From contig JAGAKZ010000027.1 of assembly GCA_017848115.1 (NCBI GenBank), positions 1-64,000 on the forward strand: a DNA stretch of 64,000 nucleotides, in the 5' to 3' direction. Both the position numbers and the translations under genes were made by a program. The notes under the pieces were generated by a model. It was given only the letters and a program-made list of their open reading frames with translations. It searched no databases and was not told the DNA's origin. This stretch comes from Oscillospiraceae bacterium. GTDB lineage: Bacteria; Bacillota; Clostridia; Oscillospirales; Ruminococcaceae. How positions within the stretch are numbered: position 1 is the stretch's first letter; every line of letters begins with the position of its first letter. Positions 32,037-43,591 of the stretch are shown in pieces.

Positions 32037-32138
32037 TCAAAAAATATTTTTTAATTTAAAACAAAAATAAAAAAATTCTAAAATTAAGAAATACAGAAAA
32101 AAACACAGATTTGACACCAGGAAATAGCCACTCTTGTT

Positions 32139-32166
32139 ATTTCGCAAAATCACACTTTTGCGAAAT
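32139..32166. repeat. Left dif-like site (perfect 11-6-11 palindrome), candidate attL
   Basis: Arms ATTTCGCAAAA (32139-32149) and TTTTGCGAAAT (32156-32166) are exact reverse complements around the 6-bp centre TCACAC, the geometry of XerC/XerD dif sites. Sequence from 32146 to about 32197 is repeated at 43571-43622. On its own it could also be a hairpin, but no T-run follows on either strand. Confidence 0.6.
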
Positions 32167-32192
32167 CGGGGAATTAATTTTTAACTCTCCTG

Positions 32193-32447
32193 CTATTCAG
32201 CAAAATATCTTTCACGCAGATAATCAAAGATTTTTTTTCGTTCTTCATCATATGTGTAACAGTAATCATACAATGATATACATTTGCATTCCATAAGAGT
32301 TCTTAAACATGCATCAAATGCACTAAATGCAAAACAAAATTTTTCACTTTCACGACTTCGGGCTAAAATCACAACACAAGATAAATATTCTGATAATGCC
32401 GGTTTGTCTTCTGACTTCAACTTAATTGCTAATTTTATTAGTTTCAT
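32193..32447 (-). CDS. Small prophage protein of unknown function
   Basis: An 84-aa protein, MKLIKLAIKLKSED..., mixed charged helices with five Cys in the second half, no transmembrane segment. The ATG at 32447 follows GAGGTG; an upstream ATG in the same frame lies within the Shine-Dalgarno. Last gene of a run of four small minus-strand genes at the left end of the prophage, stopping 27 bp from the left dif-like site. No family recognised. Confidence 0.55.
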   Translation of the reverse strand: MKLIKLAIKLKSEDKPALSEYLSCVVILARSRESEKFCFAFSAFDACLRTLMECKCISLYDYCYTYDEERKKIFDYLRERYFAE

Positions 32448-32488
32448 TGTATCACACCTCATTAATTATCTTTTTCTCAAAAATTATA

Positions 32489-32767
32489 TTATACTCTCAT
32501 CACATACGCCTTAGAATGATACGATTTATAGCGACTGAGAACGTCAACAAAATATTCATAGTGACAACCATCAATATATTCAAGACATAGAGCAGTATAG
32601 AGAACACCTTCTGCAAACTGAACTGCTTCATCATTCCATCCAGCATAACACCTGCTATACTCATTACGCATAAAATCACTATGTGCTTTATGCAAATATT
32701 TAAAAGCAAGTCTAAAAGCCCCAAAATCCTTATACAAATCCGTCAAAGTTTCAAATTTTTTATCCAT
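32489..32767 (-). CDS. Small prophage protein of unknown function
   Basis: 92 aa, beginning MDKKFETLTDLYKDFGAF, rich in Tyr, Cys and His and predicted mostly helical, soluble. A good AAGGAG lies 7 bp upstream. Resembles the neighbouring 62- and 84-aa products in style (AEGVLYTALCLEYIDG / short helical units), suggesting a local family. Function unknown. Confidence 0.55.
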   Translation of the reverse strand: MDKKFETLTDLYKDFGAFRLAFKYLHKAHSDFMRNEYSRCYAGWNDEAVQFAEGVLYTALCLEYIDGCHYEYFVDVLSRYKSYHSKAYVMRV

Positions 32768-32792
32768 ATAAATAACTCCTTATCACACCTCA

Positions 32793-32981
32793 TTAATTAT
32801 CTTTTTCAATTATCTTTTTCTCGAAGCCTATATACAACTCTATTGCATATGCTCTAAGTTCCGGAGTCAGATGATGTCTGTATAAGCTCTCGGCTTCCAT
32901 GATCATCTTAGAACATGAAACATGCCGAACATAAAATGCTTTGTGTACAAAATTATATACTGAATTTTCTATATCTATCAT
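32793..32981 (-). CDS. Small prophage protein of unknown function
   Basis: 62 aa, MIDIENSVYNFVHKAF..., helical, with HHLTPELRAYAIELYIGFEKK at the end. It starts immediately after the stop of the 62-aa Cys-rich gene (adjacent codons), so the two are translationally linked. Unknown family. Confidence 0.5.
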   Translation of the reverse strand: MIDIENSVYNFVHKAFYVRHVSCSKMIMEAESLYRHHLTPELRAYAIELYIGFEKKIIEKDN

Positions 32982-33170
32982 TTAATCACGTCCTAAATTT
33001 CTGAGATAATCTCGCATTTCTCTGCGGAAGTCTCGAATTTTTGTACAGGTATCATATAAATCGCATATTGTGCATTGAAAACAATCTGTAGTGTGTTCGC
33101 AGTCGGTGCAGTCCTGGTGGCACTCTGATTTATATTGACACTGTAAGTTATCACATACTAAGTTATACAT
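32982..33170 (-). CDS. Cys-rich small protein
   Basis: A 62-aa protein with nine cysteines in its first 42 residues (spacing such as CxxxxCxxxxxCxxxCxxC and CxxCxxC), followed by a basic helix (FRREMRDYLRNLGRD). It looks like a zinc or iron-sulfur binding miniprotein or a disulfide-knotted peptide. No signal peptide, so metal binding is likelier. GAGGTGAAA lies upstream. Prophage gene between the coiled-coil gene and the 62-aa gene. Confidence 0.6.
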   Translation of the reverse strand: MYNLVCDNLQCQYKSECHQDCTDCEHTTDCFQCTICDLYDTCTKIRDFRREMRDYLRNLGRD

Positions 33171-33189
33171 TGCGTTTCACCTCAAAAAA

Positions 33190-33216
33190 ATATGCGGTAC
33201 TGTTTCCAGCACCGCA
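33190..33216 (-). terminator. Terminator after the coiled-coil gene (minus strand)
   Basis: Stem TGCGGT/ACCGCA (33193-33198 with 33211-33216) with a T-run on the minus strand (A7 at 33184-33190 on plus). Confidence 0.65.
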
Positions 33217-33233
33217 AGTTAATGTTATGTAGT

Positions 33234-33485
33234 TTATGATGATTTCTTTACAGGGAATTTTACTACTGCTTCGACTTCTGAAACAGCGTCAGCCCATTCT
33301 ATCAAAGTGTTTACAGCTGTTCTTGTTATTTCTGTATCTTCTTTGATTTCTGATACTTCTTCTTTGATGTTTGAAACATCTGTTTTTAACACTGAAACAT
33401 CAGTTTTTAATGCTGAAACATCAGTTTCAAGACTTTTTAAACGTTCGTTCATCTCAGTAAGAAGAGTTAAAATCTTTTCGTCCAT
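33234..33485 (-). CDS. Coiled-coil protein, copy 1 of a duplicated cassette
   Basis: 83 aa starting MDEKILTLLTEMNERLKSLE with heptad-like repeats (SALKTDVSVLKTDVSNIKEE), a probable trimeric or tetrameric coiled coil, then a short helix-sheet tail. Its start, ribosome-binding site and promoter match those of the gene at 43710-44018, while the C-terminal halves differ. Function unknown; such coiled coils can act as tail-like spikes, adaptors or inhibitors. Confidence 0.6.
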   Translation of the reverse strand: MDEKILTLLTEMNERLKSLETDVSALKTDVSVLKTDVSNIKEEVSEIKEDTEITRTAVNTLIEWADAVSEVEAVVKFPVKKSS

Positions 33486-33504
33486 CTGAATCACCTCACT
33501 TATA

Positions 33505-33533
33505 ATTATATGCGGTTTATATTCTGTTGTCAA
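33505..33533 (-). promoter_or_regulatory. Promoter of coiled-coil copy 1
   Basis: Minus strand TTGACA (33533-33528), 17 bp, TATAAT (33510-33505), perfect consensus; about 50 bp are shared with the second cassette. Confidence 0.8.
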
Positions 33534-33694
33534 GTTTCTTTATTTTTTCGGTAAGCCCGGCAATAATGGCACTTGTTACCGCCGTTTACCTGTTTCCGAA
33601 ATTCTCAACTCTCAGCTCGTCCATCCTGGAAACTTGCTACGGTGTGCCTTGCCGTTCTCAGTCCTGATTGTTTGCTATCTCTTCCACTGTTTAT
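33534..33694. other. Non-coding structured stretch in the prophage
   Basis: No gene. Less AT-rich than its surroundings, with paired words such as CGGTAA/TTACCG (33548-33553 with 33576-33581). A weak minus-strand promoter (TTGTAA, 17 bp, TATAAT at 33723-33695) would transcribe it. It may be a small RNA, a leader, or a phage origin; I cannot tell which. Confidence 0.3.
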
Positions 33695-33702
33695 ATTATA
33701 GC

Positions 33703-33780
33703 ATACTTACTCAATGATTACAATTGACGAATCAAACAAACTTGAGTAAGTATATTTGTGTAATCGGCATACTTGAGTAA
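33703..33780. promoter_or_regulatory. Candidate operators of the ribbon-helix-helix regulator
   Basis: Inverted 12-bp words ATACTTACTCAA (33703-33714) and TTGAGTAAGTAT (33742-33753), plus a further TTGAGTAA (33773-33780) that overlaps the -35 of the regulator's promoter. The first lies in the spacer of a weak divergent promoter. This is the layout of an autoregulatory RHH repressor controlling both directions. Confidence 0.5.
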
Positions 33781-33801
33781 AATACAAATTGATGATATAA
33801 T
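33773..33801 (+). promoter_or_regulatory. Promoter of the RHH regulator gene
   Basis: TTGAGT (33773-33778), 17 bp, TATAAT (33796-33801). Confidence 0.65.
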
Positions 33802-33825
33802 ATAATACTGAAAGGAAGTGATAAC

Positions 33826-34029
33826 ATGGGTAAAACATCTTCTGAGTCCAAGAACAAATATAATGCTAAAGCTTATGATAGAGTAAGTGTTATGTTGAAA
33901 AAAGGACAAAGAGAAATAATCGCAGATTATGCAAGCAGTCAAGGGTTAAGCCTGAACGGCTATATCAATAAGCTGATATCTGAAGACATGGGCGAAGCTC
34001 TGACCAACGTCAAACCTGATGCAGAATAA
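33826..34029 (+). CDS. Ribbon-helix-helix (Arc/CopG-like) DNA-binding protein
   Basis: 67 aa. The segment YDRVSVMLKKGQREIIADYA..GLSLNGYINKLI is a typical RHH fold (beta strand VSVML, two helices). It probably represses its own promoter and a leftward one through the TTGAGTAA repeats just upstream. AAAGGAAGTG precedes the ATG. It is one of only a few plus-strand genes in the prophage, pointing at the end of the long minus-strand operon, and is closed by its own terminator. Confidence 0.78.
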   Translation: MGKTSSESKNKYNAKAYDRVSVMLKKGQREIIADYASSQGLSLNGYINKLISEDMGEALTNVKPDAE

Positions 34030-34036
34030 GAAATCC

Positions 34037-34069
34037 GGAAGACCTTATTTTTTAGGGTCTTCCCTTTTT
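34037..34069 (+). terminator. Terminator of the RHH gene
   Basis: Stem GGAAGACC/GGTCTTCC (34037-34044 with 34056-34063) followed by CTTTTTA. It overlaps the stop of the convergent minus-strand gene. Confidence 0.85.
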
Positions 34070-34278
34070 ATTCTCTGCTGTTTCTTTTCTTCCAGGACTT
34101 TTATAACTTCGAGTATTTCTTCTTTCGTAAGTTCACTATTTGCTATGCCTTTTTTGACTTTTCTTCTATAATCGAAGTAATCAACAGCCTTATACATAGC
34201 AGTAAATAAAAAAATACATGGGAATACAGTTGGTATCGCCTCGGCTATGTCTCTAAAGCAATCAATAAATTCATTCAT
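34045..34278 (-). CDS. Small membrane protein sharing the coat-like IPTVFP motif
   Basis: 77 aa: short acidic N-terminus, one hydrophobic segment AIPTVFPCIFLFTAMYKAV, then a long basic/acidic helical tail (KVKKG...EEKKQQRIKR). The hydrophobic segment aligns with that of the coat candidate at 39849-40031 (IPTVFPxIFxxTAxxKA), which suggests a second coat-like or minor virion protein derived from it. GAGGAGA lies 8 bp before the ATG. Overlaps the upstream gene's stop by a few bases. Last gene of the long operon. Confidence 0.6.
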   Translation of the reverse strand: MNEFIDCFRDIAEAIPTVFPCIFLFTAMYKAVDYFDYRRKVKKGIANSELTKEEILEVIKVLEEKKQQRIKREDPKK

Positions 34279-34486
34279 TGTTTAATTTCTCCTCTTCATC
34301 GATAATCTTTTCTAAATTAGCAGTATTTGCATTCTTAATCATTCTAACAAGGTAATTCTGAAATGCAGCAAAAGAAGGAGAACTTTTGCGGAGTTCTTCA
34401 GCAAATTTTGCTGCACCTTCAGAAGAATTAAAAGCCTCATAAGCTTTAGGAATAACATATTTAACATCTTTACATCTGTTTGTCAT
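34271..34486 (-). CDS. Small prophage protein of unknown function
   Basis: 71 aa, soluble, helical: MTNRCKDVKYVIPKAYEAF... ending EEEKLNNE. The ribosome-binding site and context AGGAGAGATTAAGCA-ATG are identical to those of the gene upstream, suggesting duplication of the intergenic unit. Overlaps the next start by 8 bp. No family recognised. Confidence 0.55.
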   Translation of the reverse strand: MTNRCKDVKYVIPKAYEAFNSSEGAAKFAEELRKSSPSFAAFQNYLVRMIKNANTANLEKIIDEEEKLNNE

Positions 34487-34502
34487 TGCTTAATCTCTCC
34501 TT

Positions 34503-34778
34503 TTAATCATCATAATGTTTATAATACTTTGTGAACAAATTTTGACTATCTGCAGAAATAGGATTTGAAAGCTTAACATCTTCATGATCTGAGCTTTTAT
34601 CTTCAAGATCTGTATCAGAAGTAATAGAATAACAGCTACTATGTCCATGAGTAACTAAGATAGTAAAAAGTTTAATAGCGAAGATAAGAAGCATAACTGG
34701 AAGGATAATAAAAAGCAAATCAGAAAGTATTGATTCGAGTAACTCTATAGATTCAATAATCAATTCGTTAGTTGTCAT
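34503..34778 (-). CDS. Small single-pass membrane protein
   Basis: 91 aa: N-terminal amphipathic segment, strong transmembrane helix (DLLFIILPVMLLIFAIKLFTIL, about 20-41), then a polar, Asp/Ser-rich tail. Overlaps the upstream gene by 11 bp. A minor virion or assembly protein is possible given the phage context, but there is no sequence proof. Confidence 0.55.
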   Translation of the reverse strand: MTTNELIIESIELLESILSDLLFIILPVMLLIFAIKLFTILVTHGHSSCYSITSDTDLEDKSSDHEDVKLSNPISADSQNLFTKYYKHYDD

Positions 34779-35064
34779 TGCTTAATCTCTCCTTTTCTTC
34801 AATAATCTTTTCAAGATGTTCTCGATAGATGTAATATAACTCTCCTGGATCGTCCGGAGCTATCTTGACTATCTGCATGATATGTGATGAGAATTCTTTG
34901 AAGGCTATGAACTGACTTGTTGTGATCCGGAGCTCTTCGAGCAGAATATCATCAAAATTTCTGATTCTGACTTGTCGTTGCAGTGCGTTTATTTGTGCTT
35001 CGTAAAATTCATACTTGTGTATGATGTATTCTGAGATCAACTCTCTATATGTTTTTCTTGCCAT
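34768..35064 (-). CDS. Small prophage protein of unknown function
   Basis: 98 aa, MARKTYRELISEYIIHKYEF..., helical and charged, soluble. The ATG at 35064 follows AGGTGCAAAG; an in-frame ATG 9 bp upstream is less well placed. Shares its style of ending (LEKIIEEKERLSNDN) with the 71-aa product (LEKIIDEEEKLNNE), suggesting the two are distantly related. Confidence 0.55.
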   Translation of the reverse strand: MARKTYRELISEYIIHKYEFYEAQINALQRQVRIRNFDDILLEELRITTSQFIAFKEFSSHIMQIVKIAPDDPGELYYIYREHLEKIIEEKERLSNDN

Positions 35065-35191
35065 GCTTTGCACCTACTTTTTTTATCGTGCCGGCGAGAA
35101 ATAAAAATGCTTTAAGCAATAGTGTTATAGAAACTATGAAAACAGTAAGAAACAAAACGAACATTATTCCGTAAACAAAAAATTTAAACAT
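35045..35191 (-). CDS. 48-aa single-pass membrane peptide
   Basis: A short gene beginning one base after the replication protein's stop (TAG-A-ATG), with GAGGTG upstream. It encodes MFKFFVYGIMFVLFLTVFIV, a second hydrophobic stretch LLLKAFLFLAG, and a basic tail TIKKVGAKHGKK. Hydrophobic core with basic C-terminus is the profile of inovirus minor coat proteins (pVII/pIX) or a coat protein. It overlaps the start of the next gene by 20 bp. Confidence 0.55.
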   Translation of the reverse strand: MFKFFVYGIMFVLFLTVFIVSITLLLKAFLFLAGTIKKVGAKHGKKNI

Positions 35192-35192
35192 T

Positions 35193-36470
35193 CTAACACC
35201 TCATTTTTAATTGTCGTTGCTCCAGTTCCTGAAGGATCAGGAAGGAGTTTTCGTTTGCTGTATTAATTATTTGTGATGCTTCTTTCCAGGACAAACACGG
35301 ATGCGGACTTGATGCGTAATCTGATGCACACTCTGCTATCTTAATTTCTGATGTTACAGTATTCTTTGATTTGCGCTTTATACGTTTTTTCTTATTGTAA
35401 AACTCATATGTAAGAGTATTACTGTAATTATCGCCATCGGAAATAGATACAGCTTTTGAAAATGTTCTGACTGCTTCGGATCCGATTTCAAGAAGTGCAT
35501 CACCGTAAAGACAATATCTTGATTCAGGGCGTTTAATTCCCCTGGAACATCTGTATATATGAAATCCCGGAGGATATAATGAAAGTCGACCGCCTTTCAC
35601 AAATTTCTTTTTCTTCTTACCTGAACAGGATCCATAGCGATCATAATCAGGAACGCTCATTTCTTTGATCTGGAGTTTATTTGATTCAACATTGAGATAT
35701 TGAGTCTGACTCATATCATCAGTTACTTCAATATCTGCTAAGTATGCAGTAAGATAAGCGCCGACGTTATCAACGTTGTCTATTTTTCTTGTTGTTGTAA
35801 ATCCCCTCTTTGTTTCAGAGCGTCCGGAGTTCCAAAGAGAATAGACAACGTTGTTATCTATAAATTTAATCTGTTTGTTGAAGATGTAAATGATATGTGC
35901 ATGCCATGCACCTCTTGACTGAGGTTCAACTACAGAAATGTATTCATATGTTAAGTTGAGATTTCGACCATGACTATCAGTAAGTGTTGAAATATAACGC
36001 TTGAATCGTTTGTTGAATGAGGACAAGTCTTTCATGAGCTGTTTGGAATCTGTCATGTTTTCCGCATAAGTCAGTGTAATAAACTTGCATTTACGAGTAT
36101 CAGTGACATTTGTATTGATCAATGCACGAAGTCTCTTAAATGTTTTTCTTATTTCATTAGGACCTTGCGCCCTGTTCTGAGTGCTGTTATACTTTTTCAT
36201 GTGATATGTATAACCATTTTCGGCAGTATGTAATTCAAATCGGGATGACTTTCCAGAGAGTGATTGATACTGAGGATAATCTATACATTCACCATCAGCG
36301 TTAAAAAGTGGCTCTTTCGAGTTATAGTAATGATCACGATCAATTTTAATTATGCCATTGCCGGAAGACTTATGATCATAAGCCATTATCTCGAAAATAT
36401 TACCTTGTGGAGTGAATTTTACGAAACGATTAAACTTTATTTTCTTAGCCTCAACATTCTGAACTATCAT
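35193..36470 (-). CDS. HUH-type replication initiator protein
   Basis: A 425-aa rolling-circle Rep. Motif I-like FITLTYAE is at 130-137. The metal-binding HUH motif HAH is at 190-192 (GAWHAHIIYIF). A two-tyrosine motif GAYLTAYLAD follows, with Tyr239 and Tyr243 as candidate nucleophiles. This fits the Rep families found in filamentous phages and small plasmids, which nick the plus-strand origin. GAGGTGAGA precedes the ATG. It follows the Zot gene, separated by a 150-bp segment with a very strong hairpin. The C-terminal part (250-425) is basic and unassigned. Confidence 0.85.
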   Translation of the reverse strand: MIVQNVEAKKIKFNRFVKFTPQGNIFEIMAYDHKSSGNGIIKIDRDHYYNSKEPLFNADGECIDYPQYQSLSGKSSRFELHTAENGYTYHMKKYNSTQNRAQGPNEIRKTFKRLRALINTNVTDTRKCKFITLTYAENMTDSKQLMKDLSSFNKRFKRYISTLTDSHGRNLNLTYEYISVVEPQSRGAWHAHIIYIFNKQIKFIDNNVVYSLWNSGRSETKRGFTTTRKIDNVDNVGAYLTAYLADIEVTDDMSQTQYLNVESNKLQIKEMSVPDYDRYGSCSGKKKKKFVKGGRLSLYPPGFHIYRCSRGIKRPESRYCLYGDALLEIGSEAVRTFSKAVSISDGDNYSNTLTYEFYNKKKRIKRKSKNTVTSEIKIAECASDYASSPHPCLSWKEASQIINTANENSFLILQELEQRQLKMRC

Positions 36471-36569
36471 GTTTTTCTCACCTCTTGTATTGTTTTTTTT
36501 GTTTTTTTAGGGGAAATCAGTAACGGCAACTTATAACCTTGTAATCAAGTTAAAAGGGCTTCGCCCTGC

Positions 36570-36626
36570 GCCCTGCGGACGCCCCCCTCTGACAGCAAGC
36601 TGCAGAGGGGGGCGTCCGCTTAGGGC
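36570..36626. repeat. Very stable GC-rich hairpin between zot-like and rep genes
   Basis: A 17-bp uninterrupted stem (36575-36591 with 36603-36619; GCGGACGCCCCCCTCTG) extends by five more pairs past a 2-nt bulge (GCCCT/AGGGC, 36570-36574 with 36622-36626). It includes the stop codon of the zot-like gene. A smaller AGGGC/GCCCT hairpin with TTTT on the minus strand lies next to it (36554-36566). In AT-rich surroundings this is a candidate ssDNA origin, packaging signal or terminator. Confidence 0.75.
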
Positions 36627-37525
36627 TTGCTGGGCGTTTTCCGTTTTAACTTTGATGATACCTCAAAGGTTACAGGATCCGCCGTCAACTGTTCATTTCT
36701 TGCTTTCCATCCTTTCAGGGTCAGGCGTGCGACCTTGGCTCTCGTGTCATAGCTTCCCCTGATTTCGTCTGTATGTACAAAGAAATATGTTTTGTACTTG
36801 CGAAGCTTCTGAATCTCAGCGTCAAACTGTTTGATGTATGGGCGATAGATACGGACTACAGTAAGACAGCCGGCGATTGTAAACGGCTTGACGTAGTAGT
36901 CTATCTGTTCACGCAGCGCAGCAGATAAACGATTAAATCTTTGTGTAGTCATAACTATCATCTTGTGCTGTTTGCGCTCCTGACAGATTTCTTGAAGGAC
37001 TTCGGGAGGGAAATTTCTTGACTCGGCGCTGTTAAACCAATTCTGCGCTTCGTCAAGCACAACGACCATACCGTCATTTCCATTATCGTTAAATACGAAA
37101 TCGTTAGGATCCGTTATCAACTGATCCGAGAAAGCTAAATCAATGTTTGATAGTATCTTGCAACGTGGAAACTTAGCTTTAATTGAATGTAGCATATCAA
37201 CTAAAGCTATAGTCTTGCCTGAGCCTTGCTGTCCAACAAAACACCACAAGCCATACATGTTAAACTCGTCCGGATCAATAAGAAGACGATCAAGGACAAA
37301 ACGCCTGGGGAAATCCCAGAATATTTGTATAAATCCGTTGCGCTTGGTTGATGTATTTACATAAGAACTTTTCTTTTTTCGTATCTTTTTGAAAAAAACA
37401 AAATATATAAACCATATAAAGCACGCAAATACAAAGGGTATTAAGACAATCGCAACCAGGGCGAGGATAAATCCGAAGATCTGAAAAAACATCTTAAGTA
37501 TTGGAATCGTAGCTTGTAAAAACAT
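36620..37525 (-). CDS. Zot/pI-like filamentous phage assembly ATPase
   Basis: A 301-aa protein of the zonular-occludens-toxin (Zot) family, the inner-membrane motor that extrudes filamentous phage. An N-terminal transmembrane helix (about 17-46, followed by KKIRKKK) sits before the ATPase domain, with Walker A GQQGSGKT at 98-105 and Walker B VVVLDEAQNWF at 154-164. TTQRFNRLSAALREQID is a family hallmark. In Gram-negative pI/Zot proteins the transmembrane helix follows the ATPase; here it precedes it. GAGGTG lies upstream. This is the marker gene identifying the prophage as inovirus-like. Confidence 0.9.
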   Translation of the reverse strand: MFLQATIPILKMFFQIFGFILALVAIVLIPFVFACFIWFIYFVFFKKIRKKKSSYVNTSTKRNGFIQIFWDFPRRFVLDRLLIDPDEFNMYGLWCFVGQQGSGKTIALVDMLHSIKAKFPRCKILSNIDLAFSDQLITDPNDFVFNDNGNDGMVVVLDEAQNWFNSAESRNFPPEVLQEICQERKQHKMIVMTTQRFNRLSAALREQIDYYVKPFTIAGCLTVVRIYRPYIKQFDAEIQKLRKYKTYFFVHTDEIRGSYDTRAKVARLTLKGWKARNEQLTADPVTFEVSSKLKRKTPSKP

Positions 37526-37537
37526 ATATACACCTCA

Positions 37538-37801
37538 TTAAGTTCCGGATATGGTAGGAATGAACGACTTAACACGCATACATACAGCCCAGAACATTCT
37601 AAAAGATATGATAAGTAGTTTGATTTCAAAGAGAGCCAAAATAGGAGCAACAGGGATAAAAAAAGCAACACCGTTAAGAAAGTCGCTTGCATTGTCAAGG
37701 AATTCTGTTGAAAGTACAAAGTCAAGTTCCGGAAGAAGATTGATTATATTAAGTGCAACAGTCAATATTGCAGAAATCAAGAAGAGTAAAACGGATAACA
37801 T
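37538..37801 (-). CDS. pVI-like multi-pass membrane protein
   Basis: 87 aa with two to three hydrophobic helices (LSVLLFLISAILTVAL; FLNGVAFFIPVAPILALF; LLIISFRMFWAVCM) and a basic tail. Its size, topology and place between the adsorption-protein candidate and the Zot gene match pVI of filamentous phages, a minor virion cap protein. GGAGGAATA lies upstream; it starts 2 bp after the preceding stop. Confidence 0.65.
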   Translation of the reverse strand: MLSVLLFLISAILTVALNIINLLPELDFVLSTEFLDNASDFLNGVAFFIPVAPILALFEIKLLIISFRMFWAVCMRVKSFIPTISGT

Positions 37802-37803
37802 AA

Positions 37804-39756
37804 TTATTCCTCCTTCTGAGAATGAGCGTCAAAAGCATTTCTGACATCTGAAACGTTACCGATCAGAGTCGGGATTGACTTCAAGAGCGAAAGTAAATAT
37901 GTAGAGTATAGAATGAATGTGATAATAACGTGTATCTTTGTTCTATGTTTTGCATAGAAACGAAAATCAAAGATCTCTATGTCCTGACCGCCTACTGTTA
38001 CTGTCCATCCTTCGGGAATATCTCCGGAGTAAGAAGCATCATCAAGATAAGATGTATCGGCATGGTCGAACTGTTCGAGCAAAGAGCGAACAGCGACATG
38101 CTCACCTGAATCAGATAATGCGGAAGTATTAAGAGCCAGAGTCTGAACGTCACCGGACCCGACAGAACCGGGAGCAGTATAATAAGCGAATGTTTCTCCG
38201 TCACCGTTTACATCAAGACCGCACTTCTCAAAAAAATCGTCGTTAAACAGACTCGATAGCTGAGAATAAACAGGAACTTTATTGTTAATAGCGTCAGAGA
38301 AGTTAGTGTGCCATTCATCGAAAAAGAGATCGACTTCATCTTTTTTAGTTTCAGGAATTTCGATTTCAATATTAGTGCTGGAGCCGACATTGCCCAGAGC
38401 TTCGATGATTAAATTTATTGGTTCAATAAAAACGTTATAAGCAGAATCAGCAAAAGAGTCAGGTAGCAGAGTGATATAGTTAAGAAGTCTGTTAAAATCA
38501 ATAAGGATAGAATCAAAATAAGTTTGAATATAACTAAACTTTGATGCAATAAGATCAGGCAAAGAAGAAATTGACCTGAGAATCTCACGAAGCAAAGAAG
38601 TATAGACATCATCTTCTTCTGTATCGGTTACATAAGTGTAATCTTTATTTCCGTCATCATCTTCCTGGAGGTGTCCAGGCCAATAAGCATGATCATATTG
38701 CACCTTATGCCCTTCCATCATATCGACATAACGCTTATATTCAATATATAGATTATCTATGCAGTTACAAACAGATGATATCAAAGATATATCAATATCT
38801 AAAACATTAATGTTAGCAATAAGCTTTGGTAAACCTAGAAGCATTCTAACCGGACTAGTTCCATATTTGCTCCACCACTCCACAAGATATTTAATTTTGT
38901 CTTGAGCAACATTAAGCCCACATTCTGCAATGTCTTCATAACGTTTGTTTTCAATAATCCATTCAGTAAATGAATCAATATCTACATCAACAATGATACC
39001 GGAAGGAGGTACTAAATTTATATTTGGATTTAAATCAACATCTGGAACAGTTGAATTATCCTTATTCTCTAAGCGATAATAATCTAAATCATATGAATTA
39101 TAATTAGTTGCTGATACTGTTTTAAAATATTCTGTGTCGAAAATATCATACGGAGATTCTAGCCCTAAATAATTGTAAACAGCATAAGTAAAAATAAAAC
39201 GTTCTACAAAACCAGTAGTATTTGATTCTCGAAATACTATGATTATGTCACCATCAACAACATTTTTCATAACACTTGCATTCGATAAATCATACGAAGT
39301 ATTATAAACAGTACGAGATGAATAACTAGTAAAAGGATAATAAGAAGAAGAACCGGAAAAGTTAGTATAATATTTATAATCAGGACCGCCAATAGAATAA
39401 TACTTTGGCATAACAACAACACCATAAGCTATAGTACTTGATTTAATTTCTTCTGTTATAACACCACCACTTGAAGATGTATACAAATAATAATAAGTAG
39501 CCGGTTGACCAAGGCTAGCAATTATAGTATTATCAAAATCTTCGATACTAGAGTTTTGAGATAAATTATAAATGTTTTGCAAGTCATTACTTGAATAATC
39601 AACAGAAGATACAAAACCCATTTGAAGAAGTTCCTCAACAGTAAAAGCTGTCTTTGTTTCTGTAGTTTCTTCTGCCGACACCAGATCCGGAACTGGAACG
39701 AAGACGGTGAACATGATCATGACCGCCAGGAAAAAGGAAAGTATGCGTTTTTTCAT
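37804..39756 (-). CDS. Large secreted, C-terminally anchored protein, pIII-like adsorption protein candidate
   Basis: 650 aa: a signal peptide (MKKRILSFFLAVMIMFTVF, cleavage near VSA-EE), a long Tyr/Ser/Asp-rich extracellular region without recognised domains, and a hydrophobic segment near the C-terminus (VIITFILYSTYLLSLL, about 612-628). This is the architecture of filamentous-phage receptor-binding protein pIII, and the gene sits between the coat and pVI-like genes. Sequence similarity alone does not show it. GAGGTG upstream; expression may be set by the terminator just before it. Confidence 0.65.
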   Translation of the reverse strand: MKKRILSFFLAVMIMFTVFVPVPDLVSAEETTETKTAFTVEELLQMGFVSSVDYSSNDLQNIYNLSQNSSIEDFDNTIIASLGQPATYYYLYTSSSGGVITEEIKSSTIAYGVVVMPKYYSIGGPDYKYYTNFSGSSSYYPFTSYSSRTVYNTSYDLSNASVMKNVVDGDIIIVFRESNTTGFVERFIFTYAVYNYLGLESPYDIFDTEYFKTVSATNYNSYDLDYYRLENKDNSTVPDVDLNPNINLVPPSGIIVDVDIDSFTEWIIENKRYEDIAECGLNVAQDKIKYLVEWWSKYGTSPVRMLLGLPKLIANINVLDIDISLISSVCNCIDNLYIEYKRYVDMMEGHKVQYDHAYWPGHLQEDDDGNKDYTYVTDTEEDDVYTSLLREILRSISSLPDLIASKFSYIQTYFDSILIDFNRLLNYITLLPDSFADSAYNVFIEPINLIIEALGNVGSSTNIEIEIPETKKDEVDLFFDEWHTNFSDAINNKVPVYSQLSSLFNDDFFEKCGLDVNGDGETFAYYTAPGSVGSGDVQTLALNTSALSDSGEHVAVRSLLEQFDHADTSYLDDASYSGDIPEGWTVTVGGQDIEIFDFRFYAKHRTKIHVIITFILYSTYLLSLLKSIPTLIGNVSDVRNAFDAHSQKEE

Positions 39757-39772
39757 AAAATCACCTCATTTT

Positions 39773-39814
39773 TATAAAAAAAATAAGACGTAGTGCCTTA
39801 TAAACTACGTCTTA
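39773..39814 (-). terminator. Terminator directly after the coat-protein candidate
   Basis: Perfect 11-bp stem TAAGACGTAGT/ACTACGTCTTA (39784-39794 with 39804-39814), loop of 9, followed on the minus strand by ATTTTTTTTA. It lies between the coat candidate and the pIII-like gene. Confidence 0.9.
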
Positions 39815-39848
39815 GCGGTGCAGTCCATAAATGCTGCATCGGAAATTA

Positions 39849-40031
39849 TTAAGCTCCACGAACCATTGAAAGCACCCAACCGATAGCTTTTCTTATAGCT
39901 GTTACGCCGAAGATAGCCGGGAATACGGTAGGAATGAGAGCAACAATTGCGGAATAGATAACGGTATAGTCAACATCTTTAAGGTTTGTAACCAGAGTGT
40001 CAACAAGAGTTACTGTTACATCTCCATCCAT
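39849..40031 (-). CDS. Major coat protein candidate (pVIII-like)
   Basis: 60 aa: acidic N-terminus (MDGDVTVTLVDTLVTNLKDVDY), a hydrophobic core (TVIYSAIVALIPTVFPAIFG) and a basic C-terminal helix (IRKAIGWVLSMVRGA), the three-part profile of filamentous coat proteins. The ATG at 40031 is 7 bp from AAGGAGGTG, the strongest ribosome-binding site of the operon. No cleavable signal peptide is evident. A strong terminator follows, as after gene VIII of Ff phages. Confidence 0.75.
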   Translation of the reverse strand: MDGDVTVTLVDTLVTNLKDVDYTVIYSAIVALIPTVFPAIFGVTAIRKAIGWVLSMVRGA

Positions 40032-40044
40032 GCTTAACACCTCC

Positions 40045-40293
40045 TTATCCGAAAAATGTTTTTATAATATACCTGCAGAGTAAGCAGGTTATTATGACTA
40101 TTGTTATACCGAGATTGTAAAACATCATAGTTTCTATGTTTTTTACCGATTGCTCTAGAGCCGGAGAGTCCGTTACAGTTGTGGTTGTTTCCAAGGTGGT
40201 CGAATCTTCCGGAGCTGTAGTTGCTTCCGGCTCAGTTACAATTATTTCGCTTAATTCTGTCTCGGTTACAGAAATCGTTGTTTCATCAGGCAT
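40045..40293 (-). CDS. Thr-rich single-pass membrane protein
   Basis: 82 aa: a Glu/Thr-rich N-terminal part (residues 1-50, TTTTVTD-like) and a C-terminal transmembrane helix (MMFYNLGITIVIITCLLCRYII) with a short basic end. Possibly a minor coat or tip protein. Its start overlaps the previous stop by one base, so it is coupled to the ssDNA-binding candidate. Unknown family. Confidence 0.6.
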   Translation of the reverse strand: MPDETTISVTETELSEIIVTEPEATTAPEDSTTLETTTTVTDSPALEQSVKNIETMMFYNLGITIVIITCLLCRYIIKTFFG

Positions 40294-40646
40294 TATTTTT
40301 TATGATCTGATGAAGGAGGATTATTTGAAATAGGTTCAAGATCTTTTGGTCTTACACCTACCAAGACAACTTTGTTATCACTTGGAACGTAAAGCAAGTC
40401 TACTTCCTTATCAACTAACTGCATATAGTTCTTGTATTCTATGCCGGTGAAGTTCTCGAAGTCTTCCTTCTTAACCTTGACTACTTCTGCAGAAAGTCCG
40501 TATGTTTCGGGAACATTGTTTGATACGATTGAAAGTCTGACATAATCCCAGACTACTTCTCTACCGTCTTCGGCAGTCATTGCGCCTTCTTTTCTTCGTG
40601 CGCCAATTACTTTTGTAAATGGTTTTGGATGTTCTCTTGTTGGCAT
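40293..40646 (-). CDS. Candidate ssDNA-binding protein (pV-like)
   Basis: 117 aa, beginning MPTREHPKPFTKVIGARR, beta-rich core (VWDYVRLSIVSNNV; EVVKVKKEDF; EVDLLYVPSDNKVVLVGVR) and a polar disordered tail. Size, strand pattern and position just upstream of the coat genes fit the OB-fold ssDNA-binding/gene V protein of filamentous phages. There is no diagnostic motif. AAGAGG lies upstream. Confidence 0.45.
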   Translation of the reverse strand: MPTREHPKPFTKVIGARRKEGAMTAEDGREVVWDYVRLSIVSNNVPETYGLSAEVVKVKKEDFENFTGIEYKNYMQLVDKEVDLLYVPSDNKVVLVGVRPKDLEPISNNPPSSDHKK

Positions 40647-40663
40647 TTTAATAACCTCTTTTC

Positions 40664-40888
40664 TTAGTCTTCATTGTGAATTCGTTTGAGTTCTTCCTGT
40701 AGTAAATCACATTGTTTTGTTATTCTTTCATTTTCAATTGTTAATTGTACATTTTCACGTTGAAGTGATTCTACAGTCTTTTTCATTTTCTTGTTGCCTG
40801 AAATAAGTATGAGTGCATGTACTGCCCAGCAAGCGCTTATTACATACAGCCATACATGACTTAAAATTAAGTCGATTAACTCTTTCAT
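40664..40888 (-). CDS. Small membrane coiled-coil protein
   Basis: 74 aa: a transmembrane helix (HVWLYVISACWAVHALILIS) followed by a leucine-zipper-like coiled coil (LQRENVQLTIENERITKQCDL). ATG 40888 is preceded by GGAGGCTGA. First gene of the structural operon. The topology (short N-terminus, one helix, long cytoplasmic coiled coil) is reminiscent of phage spanin or assembly adaptor proteins, but the function is unknown. Confidence 0.55.
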   Translation of the reverse strand: MKELIDLILSHVWLYVISACWAVHALILISGNKKMKKTVESLQRENVQLTIENERITKQCDLLQEELKRIHNED

Positions 40889-41014
40889 TGTGTCAGCCTC
40901 CATTTTTTTTATTTTTTGTAGCCCTGTTGGGCGGTCGGCGTGTAGCTATTACAAGCCGACACAATACAAAAGTTTATGATAAGCGTCAGGCTAATAACGC
41001 TGTATCACCGTGTT

Positions 41015-41043
41015 TTGACTTCTCCCGACTTCTGATGTATAAT
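41015..41043 (+). promoter_or_regulatory. Promoter of the first small hydrophobic peptide gene
   Basis: TTGACT (41015-41020), 17 bp, TATAAT (41038-41043). Confidence 0.7.
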
Positions 41044-41083
41044 ATATTTGTCAAATCATTAAACACAAAAAGTAGGTGAAAAG

Positions 41084-41101
41084 ATGACTGTAACTTATTA
41101 A
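41084..41101 (+). other. Five-codon leader ORF
   Basis: AGGTGAAAAG precedes ATG ACT GTA ACT TAT TAA (MTVTY). It lies in the transcript of the first small peptide, 74 bp before it. A translated minigene here could regulate the downstream gene; it may also be chance. Confidence 0.3.
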
Positions 41102-41174
41102 GCTTTTTGTTAGTTGCTTGTATATCCTTCAGTATGTACAGTACAAATATTAAATATGAAAGGTGGTGATCCAA

Positions 41175-41333
41175 ATGAAAAAATGGTTTTCAATACTTTC
41201 AGTAGCTGTTATTATTACATTTGCTTTATGCGGTATTAATAGCGCTTTTGAAGTTGCTCTAAAAAGCCTTATACCTATTTGTATTTGTGGTTTTATTGAT
41301 GATCATAAGGCAAATAATAATAAAATTATTTAA
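41175..41333 (+). CDS. Small hydrophobic peptide, copy 1
   Basis: 52 aa, MKKWFSILSVAVIITFALCG then INSAFEVALKSLIPICICGF and a charged tail DDHKANNNK. A signal/anchor-like helix and a second hydrophobic stretch. AGGTGGTGAT lies 5 bp before the ATG. Homologous to the next gene (shared VAVIIT, CGI.SA, C.F.DKH/DDH pattern). Own promoter and own terminator. The profile is compatible with a type I toxin, holin-like peptide or minor virion peptide. Confidence 0.65.
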   Translation: MKKWFSILSVAVIITFALCGINSAFEVALKSLIPICICGFIDDHKANNNKII

Positions 41334-41340
41334 TTTTTTT

Positions 41341-41386
41341 CCCTCAGAGCTGTGGTTGTATCCGTCTCAGTTCCGGGGGATTTTTT
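41341..41386 (+). terminator. Terminator after hydrophobic peptide copy 1
   Basis: Stem CCCTCAGAGCTG/CAGTTCCGGGGG (41341-41352 with 41368-41379, one mismatch and G-T pairs) followed by ATTTTTTC; clearly related in sequence to the terminator of copy 2. Confidence 0.7.
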
Positions 41387-41403
41387 CACCTTGGGAGAAG
41401 TCG

Positions 41404-41432
41404 TTGAGTTCCAATGCTCTTTGTGCTATAAT
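41404..41432 (+). promoter_or_regulatory. Promoter of hydrophobic peptide copy 2
   Basis: TTGAGT (41404-41409), 17 bp, TATAAT (41427-41432). Confidence 0.7.
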
Positions 41433-41463
41433 GAAAATATGTATATCCAAAGGAGGTGAAAAA

Positions 41464-41616
41464 ATGAAAAAATACTTACAGGCACTTTTCTTAGTTGCTG
41501 TAATTACTCTGTACTTCTGCGGAATTCAGAGTGCTATTGTAACCGTCGCAAAGTGTACAATATTAGCTTTTATCTGTGCTTTCTTCGATAAGCACACTAG
41601 AAAAGGTGCTGTTTAA
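41464..41616 (+). CDS. Small hydrophobic peptide, copy 2
   Basis: 50 aa, MKKYLQALFLVAVITLYFCG followed by IQSAIVTVAKCTILAFICAF and a basic tail DKHTRKGAV. It follows a perfect AAAGGAGGTG. Paralogue of the gene at 41175, with the promoter-gene-terminator unit duplicated as a whole. Lies between the phage structural operon and the XRE repressor, on the opposite strand to the structural genes. The leftward phage promoter at 41785-41813 would transcribe antisense to it. Confidence 0.7.
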   Translation: MKKYLQALFLVAVITLYFCGIQSAIVTVAKCTILAFICAFFDKHTRKGAV

Positions 41617-41623
41617 TTCCTAT

Positions 41624-41658
41624 CCCCTGGAACTGTTTCAGTTCCGGGGGCTTTTTTT
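41624..41658 (+). terminator. Strong terminator after hydrophobic peptide copy 2
   Basis: Twelve-bp stem CCCCTGGAACTG/CAGTTCCGGGGG (41624-41635 with 41639-41650, one G-T), loop TTT, then CTTTTTTT. Confidence 0.92.
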
Positions 41659-41754
41659 CACCAAGATTTCATTATCAAAGAGCTTGGAACAGGAACGTGA
41701 ACGATCAGCTACTCTGTTTGAACCGTATTCAGTTCGGTGCTGATCTGTTTTTCA

Positions 41755-41835
41755 GTTGTTCACATGTGAACAACTTACAAGTACATTATAATTCATATAT
41801 GAATATATGTCAACAGCAAATCATTCACATATGAT
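41755..41835. promoter_or_regulatory. Three operator-like palindromes of the prophage switch
   Basis: GTTGTTCACATGTGAACAAC (41755-41774, perfect), ATTCATATATGAAT (41791-41804, perfect) and TTCACATATGAT (41824-41835) share a TTCAyATrTGAA core. The second sits in the spacer of the leftward promoter, the first just downstream of its start, the third overlaps the -10 of the XRE gene. This is the expected layout for a repressor controlling both lysogenic and lytic promoters. Confidence 0.75.
41785..41813 (-). promoter_or_regulatory. Leftward prophage promoter
   Basis: On the minus strand TTGACA (41813-41808), 17 bp, TATAAT (41790-41785), perfect consensus. It points toward the structural operon, whose first gene starts about 890 bp away, across the two small peptide genes. 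Confidence 0.75.
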
Positions 41836-41840
41836 ATAAT
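41832..41840 (+). promoter_or_regulatory. Extended -10 promoter of the XRE gene
   Basis: TGATATAAT (TGn plus TATAAT) without a clear -35; overlapped by the third operator palindrome. Confidence 0.6.
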
Positions 41841-41875
41841 TTGTTAAAAGCACACAAAAAAGAGGTATGAATTTT

Positions 41876-42229
41876 ATGTACTATAGATTAAAAGATTTAA
41901 GAGAAGATAAAGATCTAAGCCAAGAAGAAGTTGGGAAAGTTATAAACACATCAGCATGCTATTACGGAGCGTATGAGAATGGGAAAAGAGATATCCCTCT
42001 TCAAAGAGCCGTACAACTTGCAGAATTTTATAATGTTTCTCTTGATTACTTGGCAGATTTGAGTGATGATAAGGGCGGAAACCACTGCAATTTCCTTGAT
42101 TCACGAGAGAAAGAGCTGATCCAGAACTGGAGAAAGATTTCTGTTAAGCAACAAAACAGGATCCTTGATGAAATCGAGGATTACCTCGAAGAACCGCCCA
42201 GGACAACCGCAAAAAAATCCGTTATCTGA
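41876..42229 (+). CDS. XRE-family transcriptional repressor of the prophage
   Basis: 117 aa. N-terminal helix-turn-helix (residues 1-60: LKDLREDKDLSQEEVGKVIN, YYGAYENGKRDIPL, LAEFYNVSLDYLADL) typical of cI/Xre-like phage repressors. The C-terminal helical part probably dimerises. The ATG at 41876 is 10 bp after AGAGG; the in-frame ATG at 41867 is too close. Expressed divergently from the structural operon through the operator cluster just upstream, so it is the likely lysogeny regulator. Confidence 0.85.
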   Translation: MYYRLKDLREDKDLSQEEVGKVINTSACYYGAYENGKRDIPLQRAVQLAEFYNVSLDYLADLSDDKGGNHCNFLDSREKELIQNWRKISVKQQNRILDEIEDYLEEPPRTTAKKSVI

Positions 42230-42487
42230 GGTTCAGTTTTTCTTGAAAAAAATTTGTCTGCGACAAGTTTTTTTAAACAAGCAAGCTTGTTTTTATTTGC
42301 TTTTGTTATTTTTTGTTGTCTGATTATTTTAATTCTTGTTTTATTGTTTGTTTTGGTTATATTTGTCATACGTTTGGTTTTATTTGTTTTTTGTCGTTTC
42401 GTTTTACTTTTCATTTTTTCAGTTTTCGTTTTGGTTTTACGTTTATTTTGGAAAAAAGCTTGCCTGCAAGCAGTCAACTTTTTCTTT

Positions 42488-42571
42488 CGGTCTCCGACCG
42501 ACCAAAAACCATCCTAAGATGGTTTCTGGACTTCCTTTCGCTCTGCGGAGCGACCAAAGGCCTTAAGGCCT
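42488..42571. repeat. Cluster of four short hairpins
   Basis: Consecutive inverted repeats: TCGGT/ACCGA, AAACCATC/GATGGTTT, CGCTC/GAGCG and the perfect palindrome AGGCCTTAAGGCCT (42558-42571). Such stem-loop arrays are typical of single-strand origins. Confidence 0.6.
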
Positions 42572-42686
42572 CTGGACTCAGCACAGCAACTATTCTTTTT
42601 TCATCTTCTAAGGCAGTATCTACGCAATTTTTAAGTTTGTAGGTTTATGCTTGTCTCTCTCCCCACCCGCCCGCCGGTTTTTTTGG

Positions 42687-43054
42687 TATCAATTAACTAC
42701 GCTTGGGACGGGATGAGAAATAATAAACCACTGGCGTGGGTACTGGTGTAGAAAAAATTTTCCCCTCCGGGGCTTGACATCAGGAACCGAGAGCCGATAT
42801 TTTCGGCAGTCGTGGCAGGGGGTCCCCTTACTGACTTCTACCAATTCGGGCTTTTCTTTTGTTGTCCGGACTGTTTTGTTATTCTTTTCAGTCAGTGTTA
42901 TGGGGACGCCTGCCGGCAACGAGCCTATATCGGCTCAACCTAATGTAAAGCCCTGCCCTACGGCTCCGGGGAAATTTTTTTCAGGCGTGGTTATGGGAGT
43001 GGTTTATTATTTCTCGGTGATGTTCTGGAAGATGGGACGCTCCGTTAATTGATA
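42687..43054. repeat. 368-bp imperfect inverted repeat
   Basis: Four collinear matched blocks fold the segment on itself. TATCAATTAAC (42687) pairs with GTTAATTGATA (43044). GAGAAATAATAAACCACT (42715) pairs with the exact reverse complement at 42998-43015. The AAAAAATTTTCCCC (42752) region pairs with GGGGAAATTTTTTT (42968), and GAGCCGATAT (42791) with ATATCGGCTC (42927). The centre is near 42865. It encodes no protein. On single-stranded DNA it would form one giant hairpin. Confidence 0.75.
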
Positions 43055-43181
43055 CTTGTTTTTTGGTCAGAGCATAAAAATTGCTGATACTGGTTTGTTA
43101 TATTGCTGATGAGCGTTTGAGTTGTGCAAAGTGCTGTATCTGAAGTTGTGCATCGATTAATCAGGTTAAGCAGTTTGCATA

Positions 43182-43209
43182 AAAAAAGACCCACATGAAA
43201 CATGTGGGT
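43182..43209 (-). terminator. Terminator of the 64-aa gene (minus strand)
   Basis: Perfect 9-bp stem ACCCACATG/CATGTGGGT with loop AAA; seven T follow on the minus strand. Confidence 0.9.
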
Positions 43210-43217
43210 AAAAGCGA

Positions 43218-43412
43218 TTAAAGTGAATGTTTGGTTTTATAGTCTTCTCTGCGTTTAAGGCTTTCAAATTTATAGCAAAGTTCTGATGTTATATATCTTC
43301 TGCGTTCTTCTTGTTCCGGATCTGAATCTGGTGTTATGATGTTGCCGAAGTATCTGATAAGCTGGACGAATAATTCAGCTGGAATCTGAACTGTTTTTGA
43401 TTCAATTTTCAT
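43218..43412 (-). CDS. Small protein of unknown function near the right prophage end
   Basis: 64 aa, MKIESKTVQIPAELFVQLIRYF..., helical and charged. The opening TVQIPAELFVQLIRYF is reminiscent of a ribbon-helix-helix strand-helix unit, so a DNA-binding role is possible but unproven. AAGGTG lies upstream. The longer frame reaching 43550 would run through repeated hairpin sequence and is not supported. Confidence 0.5.
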   Translation of the reverse strand: MKIESKTVQIPAELFVQLIRYFGNIITPDSDPEQEERRRYITSELCYKFESLKRREDYKTKHSL

Positions 43413-43562
43413 GATTAATGCACCTTCTTTTTTTATTTCCCCTTTAGGGGACGGAAATTTTTCATAATTAATGCACCTTTTCTGTTTTAAGTTATTCCCC
43501 GTTAGCGCAAAAAGAATTCCTATTTTTTCATTTTTTGAATTATTCCCCATTAGGGGACGGAA
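43411..43562. repeat. Short repeats CATRATTAATGCACCTT and CCCC-TTAGGGGA hairpins
   Basis: CAT(G/A)ATTAATGCACCTT occurs at 43411-43427 and 43463-43479. TCCCCTTTAGGGGA and TTCCCCATTAGGGGAC hairpin words, with a related TTCCCCGTTAGCGC, punctuate the rest. Possibly a degenerate array of small terminator or regulatory units just inside the right boundary. Confidence 0.5.
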
Positions 43563-43563
43563 A

Positions 43564-43591
43564 AACTGGTAAAATCACACTTTTGCGAAAT
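43564..43591. repeat. Right dif-like site, candidate attR
   Basis: Left arm AACTGGTAAAA (43564-43574), centre TCACAC, right arm TTTTGCGAAAT (43581-43591). Centre and right arm equal the left site; the left arm keeps only its AAAA end. The following 30 bp (to 43622) also resemble the left site, including TCTCCTGCTATT. Confidence 0.6.

Follow-up and report, generated by a model that had tools for sequence, protein, structure and literature searches.

A block of about 11.4 kb (positions 32139-43591) in a 64-kb stretch of a Ruminococcus metagenome-assembled genome (MAG), here called the window, is a filamentous-phage (inovirus-type) element. It is very probably an integrated phage of Ruminococcus (Tubulavirales, Inoviridae-like), predicted to enter the chromosome by recombination of its attachment site, attP, with the chromosomal dif site, at which chromosome dimers are resolved, under the host Xer recombinase, with no recognised integrase of its own. 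We base this on what can be read from sequence, namely the gene content and gene order of the element, the structure of its attachment sites, the apparent identity of the target as dif, the recurrence of the arrangement across the bacterial family and a free circular relative with a matching attP.

A filamentous-phage gene block between two related sites

A preliminary description of the window placed the ends of the block at 32139 and 43591. These positions are, to the base, the outer limits of two related 28-bp sites, which we designate attL and attR:

32139-32166, no strand: attL, predicted intact chromosomal dif, ATTTCGCAAAA-TCACAC-TTTTGCGAAAT, a perfect 28-bp palindrome with 11-bp arms and a 6-bp spacer
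43564-43591, no strand: attR, hybrid site, AACTGGTAAAA-TCACAC-TTTTGCGAAAT, with spacer and right arm identical to attL and the other arm degenerate

The genes named in the preliminary description are all open and all on the minus strand, and their filamentous-phage order is also seen in bajarodino virus 9, a circular inovirus. In order of transcription, the open reading frames (ORFs) encode 110 (43218-43550), 79, 117, 82, 63, 650, 87, 301 (Zot) and 425 (Rep) amino acids (aa), followed 3' of Rep by small ORFs of 48, 101, 91, 71 and 77 aa and by five accessory ORFs of 62-99 aa. Encoded on the plus strand are a helix-turn-helix (HTH) repressor-like protein and a conserved 67-aa protein. The coding features, with TM standing for transmembrane segment, are:

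40664-40903, minus: 79-aa protein with hydrophobic and coiled-coil-like parts
40293-40646, minus: 117-aa possible OB-fold protein binding single-stranded DNA (ssDNA), gene V-like (AlphaFold model, weak matches)
40045-40293, minus: 82-aa single-TM protein, candidate minor coat
39849-40040, minus: 63-aa predicted major coat (pVIII-like), one hydrophobic helix and a basic C-terminus (alignment)
37804-39756, minus: 650-aa protein, pIII-like, signal-peptide-like N-terminus and C-terminal TM (position, architecture)
37538-37801, minus: small hydrophobic protein, pVI-like (position, hydrophobicity); relatives in G003, G004 and, weakly, L057
36620-37525, minus: Zot/pI-type morphogenesis ATPase, strong N-terminal TM and Walker A at residue 98 (Pfam, PHROGs)
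35193-36470, minus: HUH rolling-circle replication initiator (Rep, pII-like) (Pfam, PHROGs)
34271-35191, minus: small ORFs 3' of Rep (48, 101, 91, 71 aa)
34045-34278, minus: 77-aa protein, candidate minor coat, with a coat-like IPTVFP motif
32193-33533, minus: accessory small ORFs (99, 62, 62, 92, 89 aa) from the Rep module to attL
33826-34029, plus: 67-aa conserved protein, no Pfam match above cut-off; related proteins occur at other inovirus loci and in bajarodino virus 76
41867-42229, plus: HTH_3 repressor-like protein (PF01381), on the strand opposite to the structural operon

The profile search proposed earlier for the ATPase identified it as Zot/pI type: PF05707 matched well above its gathering score (E=3.1e-10, 40.3 bits against a cut-off of 20.3), PHROGs returned a Zot-like match (1.3e-12), and the generic Pfam AAA model also exceeded its curated cut-off. 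In the host's own assembly (G000) the Zot cut-off was exceeded at this one locus alone. A search of the PDB with the Zot profile gave a single weak, uninformative match. The claim of an HUH Rep held as well, with matches to PF23343 (REP_ORF2-G2P, E=7.2e-16) and phrog_3419 (rolling-circle initiation, 4.6e-21); Rep_1 and RepSA matched below threshold. The repressor-like protein matched PF01381 at 5e-14.

Pfam was run on 20 ORFs of the element, a few small ones such as 35045-35191 and 41287-41616 being left out. As Zot (PF05707 and AAA), Rep and the HTH repressor alone passed curated cut-offs in this set, the earlier remark that most genes have no recognised family was right. No integrase or recombinase, no peptidoglycan hydrolase and no tailed-phage structural family rose above cut-off among the 20 ORFs, the last in keeping with the reported absence of tailed-phage genes. 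For the 650-aa protein, neither Pfam nor PHROGs gave a family match and structure prediction returned a predicted local distance difference test score (pLDDT) of 32, which we did not use; its architecture is that of the secreted, C-terminally anchored product described before, encoded by an intact ORF, and the position and hydrophobicity of its neighbour fit the proposed pVI-like protein. The coat-like protein, put at 60 aa in the preliminary description, is 63 aa long; its coat-like character stood, in that it aligns with coat-like ORFs from other inovirus loci, and its best PHROGs hit was phrog_2186 (virion structural) at E=0.061 only. An AlphaFold model of the 117-aa protein (pLDDT 74) gave weak matches to single-stranded-DNA-binding proteins (SSBs), PriB and the Ff gene V protein, and it may be an OB-fold ssDNA-binding protein of the gene V kind.

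By the preliminary description, the phage reading would be refuted if the ATPase lacked a Zot match or if homologues of the block turned up only as plasmids or transposons without coat-like genes. Neither applies, because the Zot match lies above the gathering score, coat-like genes are present and relatives occur in circular inovirus records. An integrative plasmid or satellite with a few phage genes and no virion of its own might be suspected from the Rep, since HUH families are common to plasmids (the sub-threshold Rep_1 and RepSA matches among them), and from the 650-aa protein without a family; we find it hardly credible, as coat-like, tip-like and pVI-like genes and Zot stand together in phage order, the same as in bajarodino virus 9.

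The target site behaves as the chromosomal dif

With perfect arms, the attL palindrome is present as a single copy in each of six of the 11 genomes of the genus (G000, G001, G003, G004, G005 and G008). When up to three mismatches were allowed, nine of the 11 had one match apiece, and G008 also had one match to a control made from the backwards pattern. Three genomes with a perfect site (G001, G005, G008) have no Zot relative. Across the family we searched with a variant pattern carrying W at one arm position, at one mismatch or fewer and again with the backwards pattern as control. The site was found in 78 of 197 genomes, as a single copy in 74 of them, and the control was absent among the matches listed.

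We sampled GC skew in G193, a single contig of 2.95 Mb, as 21 stretches of 20 kb. Skew was positive up to ~475 kb (except one 5-kb bin at 460 kb), then negative, with a return to positive values somewhere from 1.7 to 2.1 Mb; the stretch at 2.9 Mb was an exception. The dif-type site, at 476,525, coincides with the skew switch and lies about half a chromosome from the second switch. In G001, where the site is at 171.6 kb, skew was negative from 180 kb on and slightly negative in two of seven earlier stretches. On the window's own contig, skew stayed positive as far as 32 kb, was mixed up to ~68 kb and turned negative beyond. Judged from these patterns, the palindrome at attL behaves as the chromosomal dif: it is usually single copy, sits at the skew switch of a one-contig relative and, in relatives, often lies beside xer. 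Integration into a tRNA gene was considered and rejected, because no tRNA was found in the window.

Integration at dif recurs across the family

The nearest named records to the host are the Ruminococcus sp. MAGs SIG549 and SIG544. Three of the 11 genus genomes, our own included, have a relative of the ATPase. G003 carries the same insertion (95% identity over 17238-33704, that is, flank and left phage end, and 99% to the right of 43981). The G004 ATPase is 69% identical and lies on a different contig from that genome's homologue of the left-flank gene. In the family as a whole, 39 of 396 genomes had an ATPase match at E<=0.001; further relatives belong to circular inoviruses recorded from pigs or from rodent faeces.

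We scanned the family loci blindly, with the site sequence unused. A hit was a 28-bp palindrome whose 11-bp arms had no more than one mismatch, paired with a direct copy of one arm plus spacer, again with one mismatch at most; this 17-bp half-copy had to lie across Zot from the palindrome, at a distance of 3-16 kb. The set comprised 44 loci from 37 genomes; the window and L041 represent the same insertion, and the L247 stretch has no Zot match. Eleven of the 44 loci were positive, against none of 220 shuffled loci. Ten of them are dif-type (the window, L044, L045, L047, L050, L051, L052, L053, L057 and L235), with spacings of 6.2-14.4 kb, and each has its intact dif 3' of the Zot operon. The arms vary by genus (ATTACGC..., ATTGCAC..., ATTTCGC...), and the far half-copy varies along with them. 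L048 and L049 are looser cases, the Zot of L048 falling outside the interval, and L050 has a second, terminator-like full duplicate besides its dif-type pair. At L246 (genome G343) an inovirus lies between two complete copies of AAAGACTAGGT-ATTTTT-ACCTAGTCTTT (5586-5613 and 14882-14909), which may be terminator-like or another integration site.

Genome by genome, we looked for the site in 37 Zot-positive genomes, the 39 minus G157 and G187, whose matches are weak and partial. Twenty-one bear it, and in 14 of these (G000, G003, G004, G012, G021, G074, G165, G166, G174, G193, G246, G271, G296 and G340) Zot lies within 10 kb of the site on the same contig. The remaining 16 had no site at one mismatch, some of them having variant arms. 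A xer gene lies 0.9-5.8 kb from Zot in 13 of the 44 loci, and dif lies within ~0.2 kb of xer in six of ten hand-picked Zot-free dif loci (L134 comes from G123, which has Zot on another contig). Two Zot matches a few kilobases apart were present at each of L053, L045 and L238, which suggests tandem inovirus arrays at these loci; tandem arrays are known for CTXphi.

In genus g101, G340 (L135) has dif near xer and, 4.6 kb off across Zot, an imperfect half-site (15/17 bases). The stretch after this half-site is 78% identical over 69 columns to the dif flank in the Zot-free genome G191 (L272). As a view of an empty site, this comparison is only suggestive.

The palindrome might instead be a terminator or operator, the paired sites ordinary direct repeats, and an unrecognised recombinase might act at another point. 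A hairpin can serve as a terminator, and L050 and L246 show other palindromes fully duplicated around an element. This explanation is very improbable, given a palindrome that as a rule occurs once in a genome, at the GC-skew switch and beside xer in relatives, a far copy of only 17 bp (arm plus spacer) across genera with differing arms, and the lack of an integrase domain among the 20 scanned ORFs.

Matching attP half-sites in free viruses

The circular genome of bajarodino virus 76 contains one half-site, ATTTCGCAAAA-CTTTTA, downstream of Zot and followed by a non-matching arm. This half-site is identical at 17/17 positions to the dif of G246, G296 and G102, all of genus g93, and the IMG/VR inovirus contig L150 has the same half-site. 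Bajarodino virus 9 has no half-site at one mismatch or fewer, and among 11 circular inovirus records besides bajarodino virus 76 none has an exact arm; one-mismatch arms in four of these 11 were not read as attP. Scanning IMG/VR with one protein at a time (Zot, Rep, the 650-aa protein) returned no relatives, and the IMG/VR inovirus set used here was gathered with profile A1 (at least 71 loci).

Integration of folded ssDNA as in CTXphi, rather than of a double-stranded form, would suit the large hairpins of the element, and inoviruses of Vibrio use differing routes at dif according to the available part of PMC5357621. We regard it as distinctly unlikely here: arm plus spacer are common to both ends, with at most one mismatch, in ten dif-type loci, and the linear attP of bajarodino virus 76 and L150 consists of a good arm, the spacer and a degenerate arm, as in TLCphi.

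Several observations weigh against integration of these phages at dif by Xer. The spacer is TCACAC here and GGACAC in four relatives within the genus, the W-variant site was not found in 119 of 197 family genomes, and GC skew is noisy in G001 and on our own contig. No pair was found in 33 of the 44 loci, a number of them cut by contig ends and some with other dif variants or sites; the eleventh positive, L246, has a different palindrome, duplicated in full. In seven of the 21 site-bearing inovirus genomes Zot lies elsewhere (G123, G138, G164, G168, G233, G365 and G396), and in Ruminococcus itself xer does not adjoin dif. A clean empty site was not found, the nearest relative, G003, also carrying the phage; the g101 comparison is imperfect, since the G340 and G191 regions diverge further out. 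In IMG/VR, the 17-bp attP hit six contigs, only one of which (L150) has a Zot relative, and exact dif arms were present in two of the 71 inovirus contigs listed, against five for the backwards control. As exact arms are thus not enriched in IMG/VR, we do not claim use of dif for inoviruses generally, beyond this bacterial family.

Selection, hairpins and a flanking relic

Between G000 and G003, Zot differs by 20 synonymous changes and one non-synonymous change (ratio of non-synonymous to synonymous rates, dN/dS, 0.012) and Rep by 19.5 and 7.5 (dN/dS 0.10); both genes are under purifying selection between these genomes. Two genes of the coat region show no change; in three small genes dN/dS is near 0.5, on so few changes that no judgement is possible, and the 101-aa pair, being out of frame, was left out of the comparison. 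Identity falls to 71% in the repressor, compared with 96.6-100% in the structural proteins beside it, a divergence as expected of temperate phages that change immunity or superinfect. Some family loci have a partial Zot or stop codons within the match (for example G174 and G187).

Three non-coding features accompany the genes:

42446-43055, no strand: GC-rich intergenic region with a nested inverted repeat of ~370 nt at 42686-43055, candidate origin or packaging hairpin
36575-36619, no strand: GC-rich hairpin, 17 bp and perfect, immediately following the Zot stop codon; may serve as terminator or packaging signal
43571-44082, no strand: attR and right flank, similar to sequence inside the left end of the phage (52 bp at 90%, followed by a relative of the 33234-33533 gene)

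The 42686-43055 repeat folds more stably than its shuffles (z -7.3 as DNA, -6.6 as RNA). The first 132 bp of the intergenic region, beside the nested palindrome, are 88% identical in G004; a comparison of the region with phages gave no match. In Rfam, the hairpins gave nothing beyond sub-threshold microRNA-like and NsiR1-like matches. The likeness at the right flank takes the form of two direct-repeat pairs at 90% (33448-33549/43981-44082 and 32146-32197/43571-43622), which are present in G003 too, and the flank may be what is left of an earlier inovirus at this dif. Adjoining attR, a gene at 44081-49342 encodes a 1753-aa protein with relatives in three of the 11 genus genomes, our own included.

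The element could also be a real inovirus at dif that has become inactive, a domesticated or decaying remnant. The relic-like stretch right of attR, the interrupted or partial Zot genes of G174 and G187, the three small genes with dN/dS near 0.5 (on very few changes) and a MAG as the sole source all lend this some support. It is nonetheless unlikely, as no core gene of the element was seen to be broken, the dN/dS values of Zot and Rep are low, and the repressor has diverged from that of G003 while the structural proteins have not, as for a superinfecting temperate phage.

An N-terminally anchored pI and exit from the cell

M13 pI has its Walker A motif at residue 8, a hydrophobic peak at 254 and 340 residues beyond Walker A. 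We compared 15 homologues of the element's ATPase, from 14 family loci and bajarodino virus 76. A strong hydrophobic segment precedes Walker A in 14 of the 15, the exception being L048, a short ORF without an N-terminal TM, and 183-203 residues follow Walker A. A more far-reaching description, that these homologues have no segment after Walker A, proved too strong: in a 17-residue window the M13 segment scores 1.71, L044 equals it and the others score 0.6-1.5. The differences that we retain are therefore two, the N-terminal anchor and a C-terminal part that is shorter.

The element otherwise has the functional set of M13 (Ff), with a pII-like Rep, a possible pV-like SSB, pVIII, pIII, pVI and pI. 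It differs in the strong TM before Walker A with ~200 residues beyond, M13 pI having no such N-terminal anchor, and in its host: no secretin match was found in the host assembly (81% complete), and six of 14 control genomes gave one. Export is predicted to need no secretin.

The host Xer and a model for integration

In the host assembly, one Xer clearly leads (G000:C23:5429-6325, at E 1e-57, with the runner-up at 2e-23). It falls below every curated cut-off that we compared (bits/cut-off: XerC 208/335, XerD 199/330, XerA 202/220, XerS, NF003462, 160/267), and its best-scoring solved relative is XerA. It has conserved motifs in common with two relatives, which we take to be the tyrosine-recombinase catalytic motifs. 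One clearly best Xer was likewise seen in five of seven genomes (G000, G003, G004, G123 and G174), with further strong copies in G001 and G193. Relatives of this divergent Xer lie beside a perfectly palindromic dif (L134, L267 and L269-L272). The window itself contains a separate tyrosine recombinase gene at 1654-2556 (XerD-model E 5e-23), 30 kb from the element. Because dif is perfectly palindromic and one Xer stands beside it in relatives, the pair may form an undescribed single-recombinase dimer-resolution system, and the host Xer probably acts alone in integration at dif.

In the model that we propose, the phage would replicate by rolling circle through its HUH Rep, and its ssDNA would probably be coated by the OB-fold protein. 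The Zot/pI membrane ATPase would extrude it with the small helical coat and the large tip or adsorption protein; the element also has a repressor. For integration, an attP of one good Xer arm, a 6-bp spacer and one degenerate arm would recombine with chromosomal dif, the acting recombinase presumably being the Xer at G000:C23:5429-6325. This would leave an intact dif 3' of the Zot operon (attL) and the hybrid site at the other end (attR), an outcome of the TLCphi type in which the intact dif would keep dimer resolution working. Excision and virion release would be expected to continue.

Relation to known systems and implications

TLCphi, VGJphi and CTXphi of Vibrio cholerae are Xer-exploiting (IMEX) inoviruses that integrate at dif through the host Xer, and in TLCphi the attP retains the central region of dif1 and one of its arms, the other arm being divergent (PMC5357621, from the part available). 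The element resembles TLCphi in that its attP also has one good arm, the shared spacer and a degenerate arm, with intact dif restored at one end. It differs from the Vibrio cases, which have Gram-negative hosts with XerC and XerD, in its Gram-positive host, a perfectly palindromic dif and an Xer below curated cut-offs. The element is probably a Gram-positive member of the IMEX inoviruses. With difSL/XerS, difH/XerH and XerA systems the host's relatives share, in several cases, a xer gene adjoining dif; here the host Xer falls below the XerS, XerC, XerD and XerA cut-offs, dif is 28 bp with perfect arms, and xer and dif are unlinked in Ruminococcus.

Among free viruses, bajarodino viruses 9 and 76 are both circular members of the Inoviridae from rodent faeces. 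Virus 9 (PQ006132) encodes a related Rep and, read around the circle, matches the element in gene order, with Zot, Rep, seven small ORFs, a 707-aa and an 84-aa ORF. Bajarodino virus 76 (PQ006119) has a Zot that is 42% identical, a large ORF and a small ORF directly before Zot, and the 17-bp attP; its Rep is located elsewhere. At 5.8 and 8.8 kb, against 11.4 kb for the element, these records carry no annotated bacterial host or integration site. Gene order in the other bajarodino genomes compared differs from that of the element.

Roux et al. 2019 (PMC6813254), in the portion accessible, predicted inovirus proviruses in 22 additional phyla and cites filamentous particles for Clostridium and Bacillus; a word search of its main text found no mention of Xer or secretin. 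The accessible part of PMC2731167 lists dif-integrated filamentous phages for Vibrio, E. coli, Yersinia and Xanthomonas. As far as these excerpts go, dif hijacking has been reported for Gram-negatives only (PMC5357621, PMC2731167), and our literature search, of limited coverage and partly on excerpts, did not turn up a Gram-positive case of a filamentous phage integrated at dif. Inoviruses in Gram-positives are already known; what is new is dif integration and the N-terminally anchored pI. Taken as a whole, a broader picture seems to us somewhat favoured, in which a Gram-positive filamentous-phage lineage hijacks an undescribed single-Xer, palindromic-dif system of the Ruminococcus family, with attP tracking the dif arms of each lineage, tandem arrays at the terminus and secretin-free exit by an N-terminally anchored pI.

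The location at dif suggests that Gram-positive filamentous phages, like the cholera-toxin phage in Gram-negatives, integrate by borrowing the host Xer. If this is true, dif hijacking would extend to anaerobic Gram-positive gut bacteria, across the membrane divide, and the 17-bp attP would offer a cheap handle for assigning hosts to some orphan circular faecal inoviruses. For this bacterial family it would also define both dif and a candidate Xer, and it would provide concrete systems for testing how filamentous phages exit from cells without an outer membrane.

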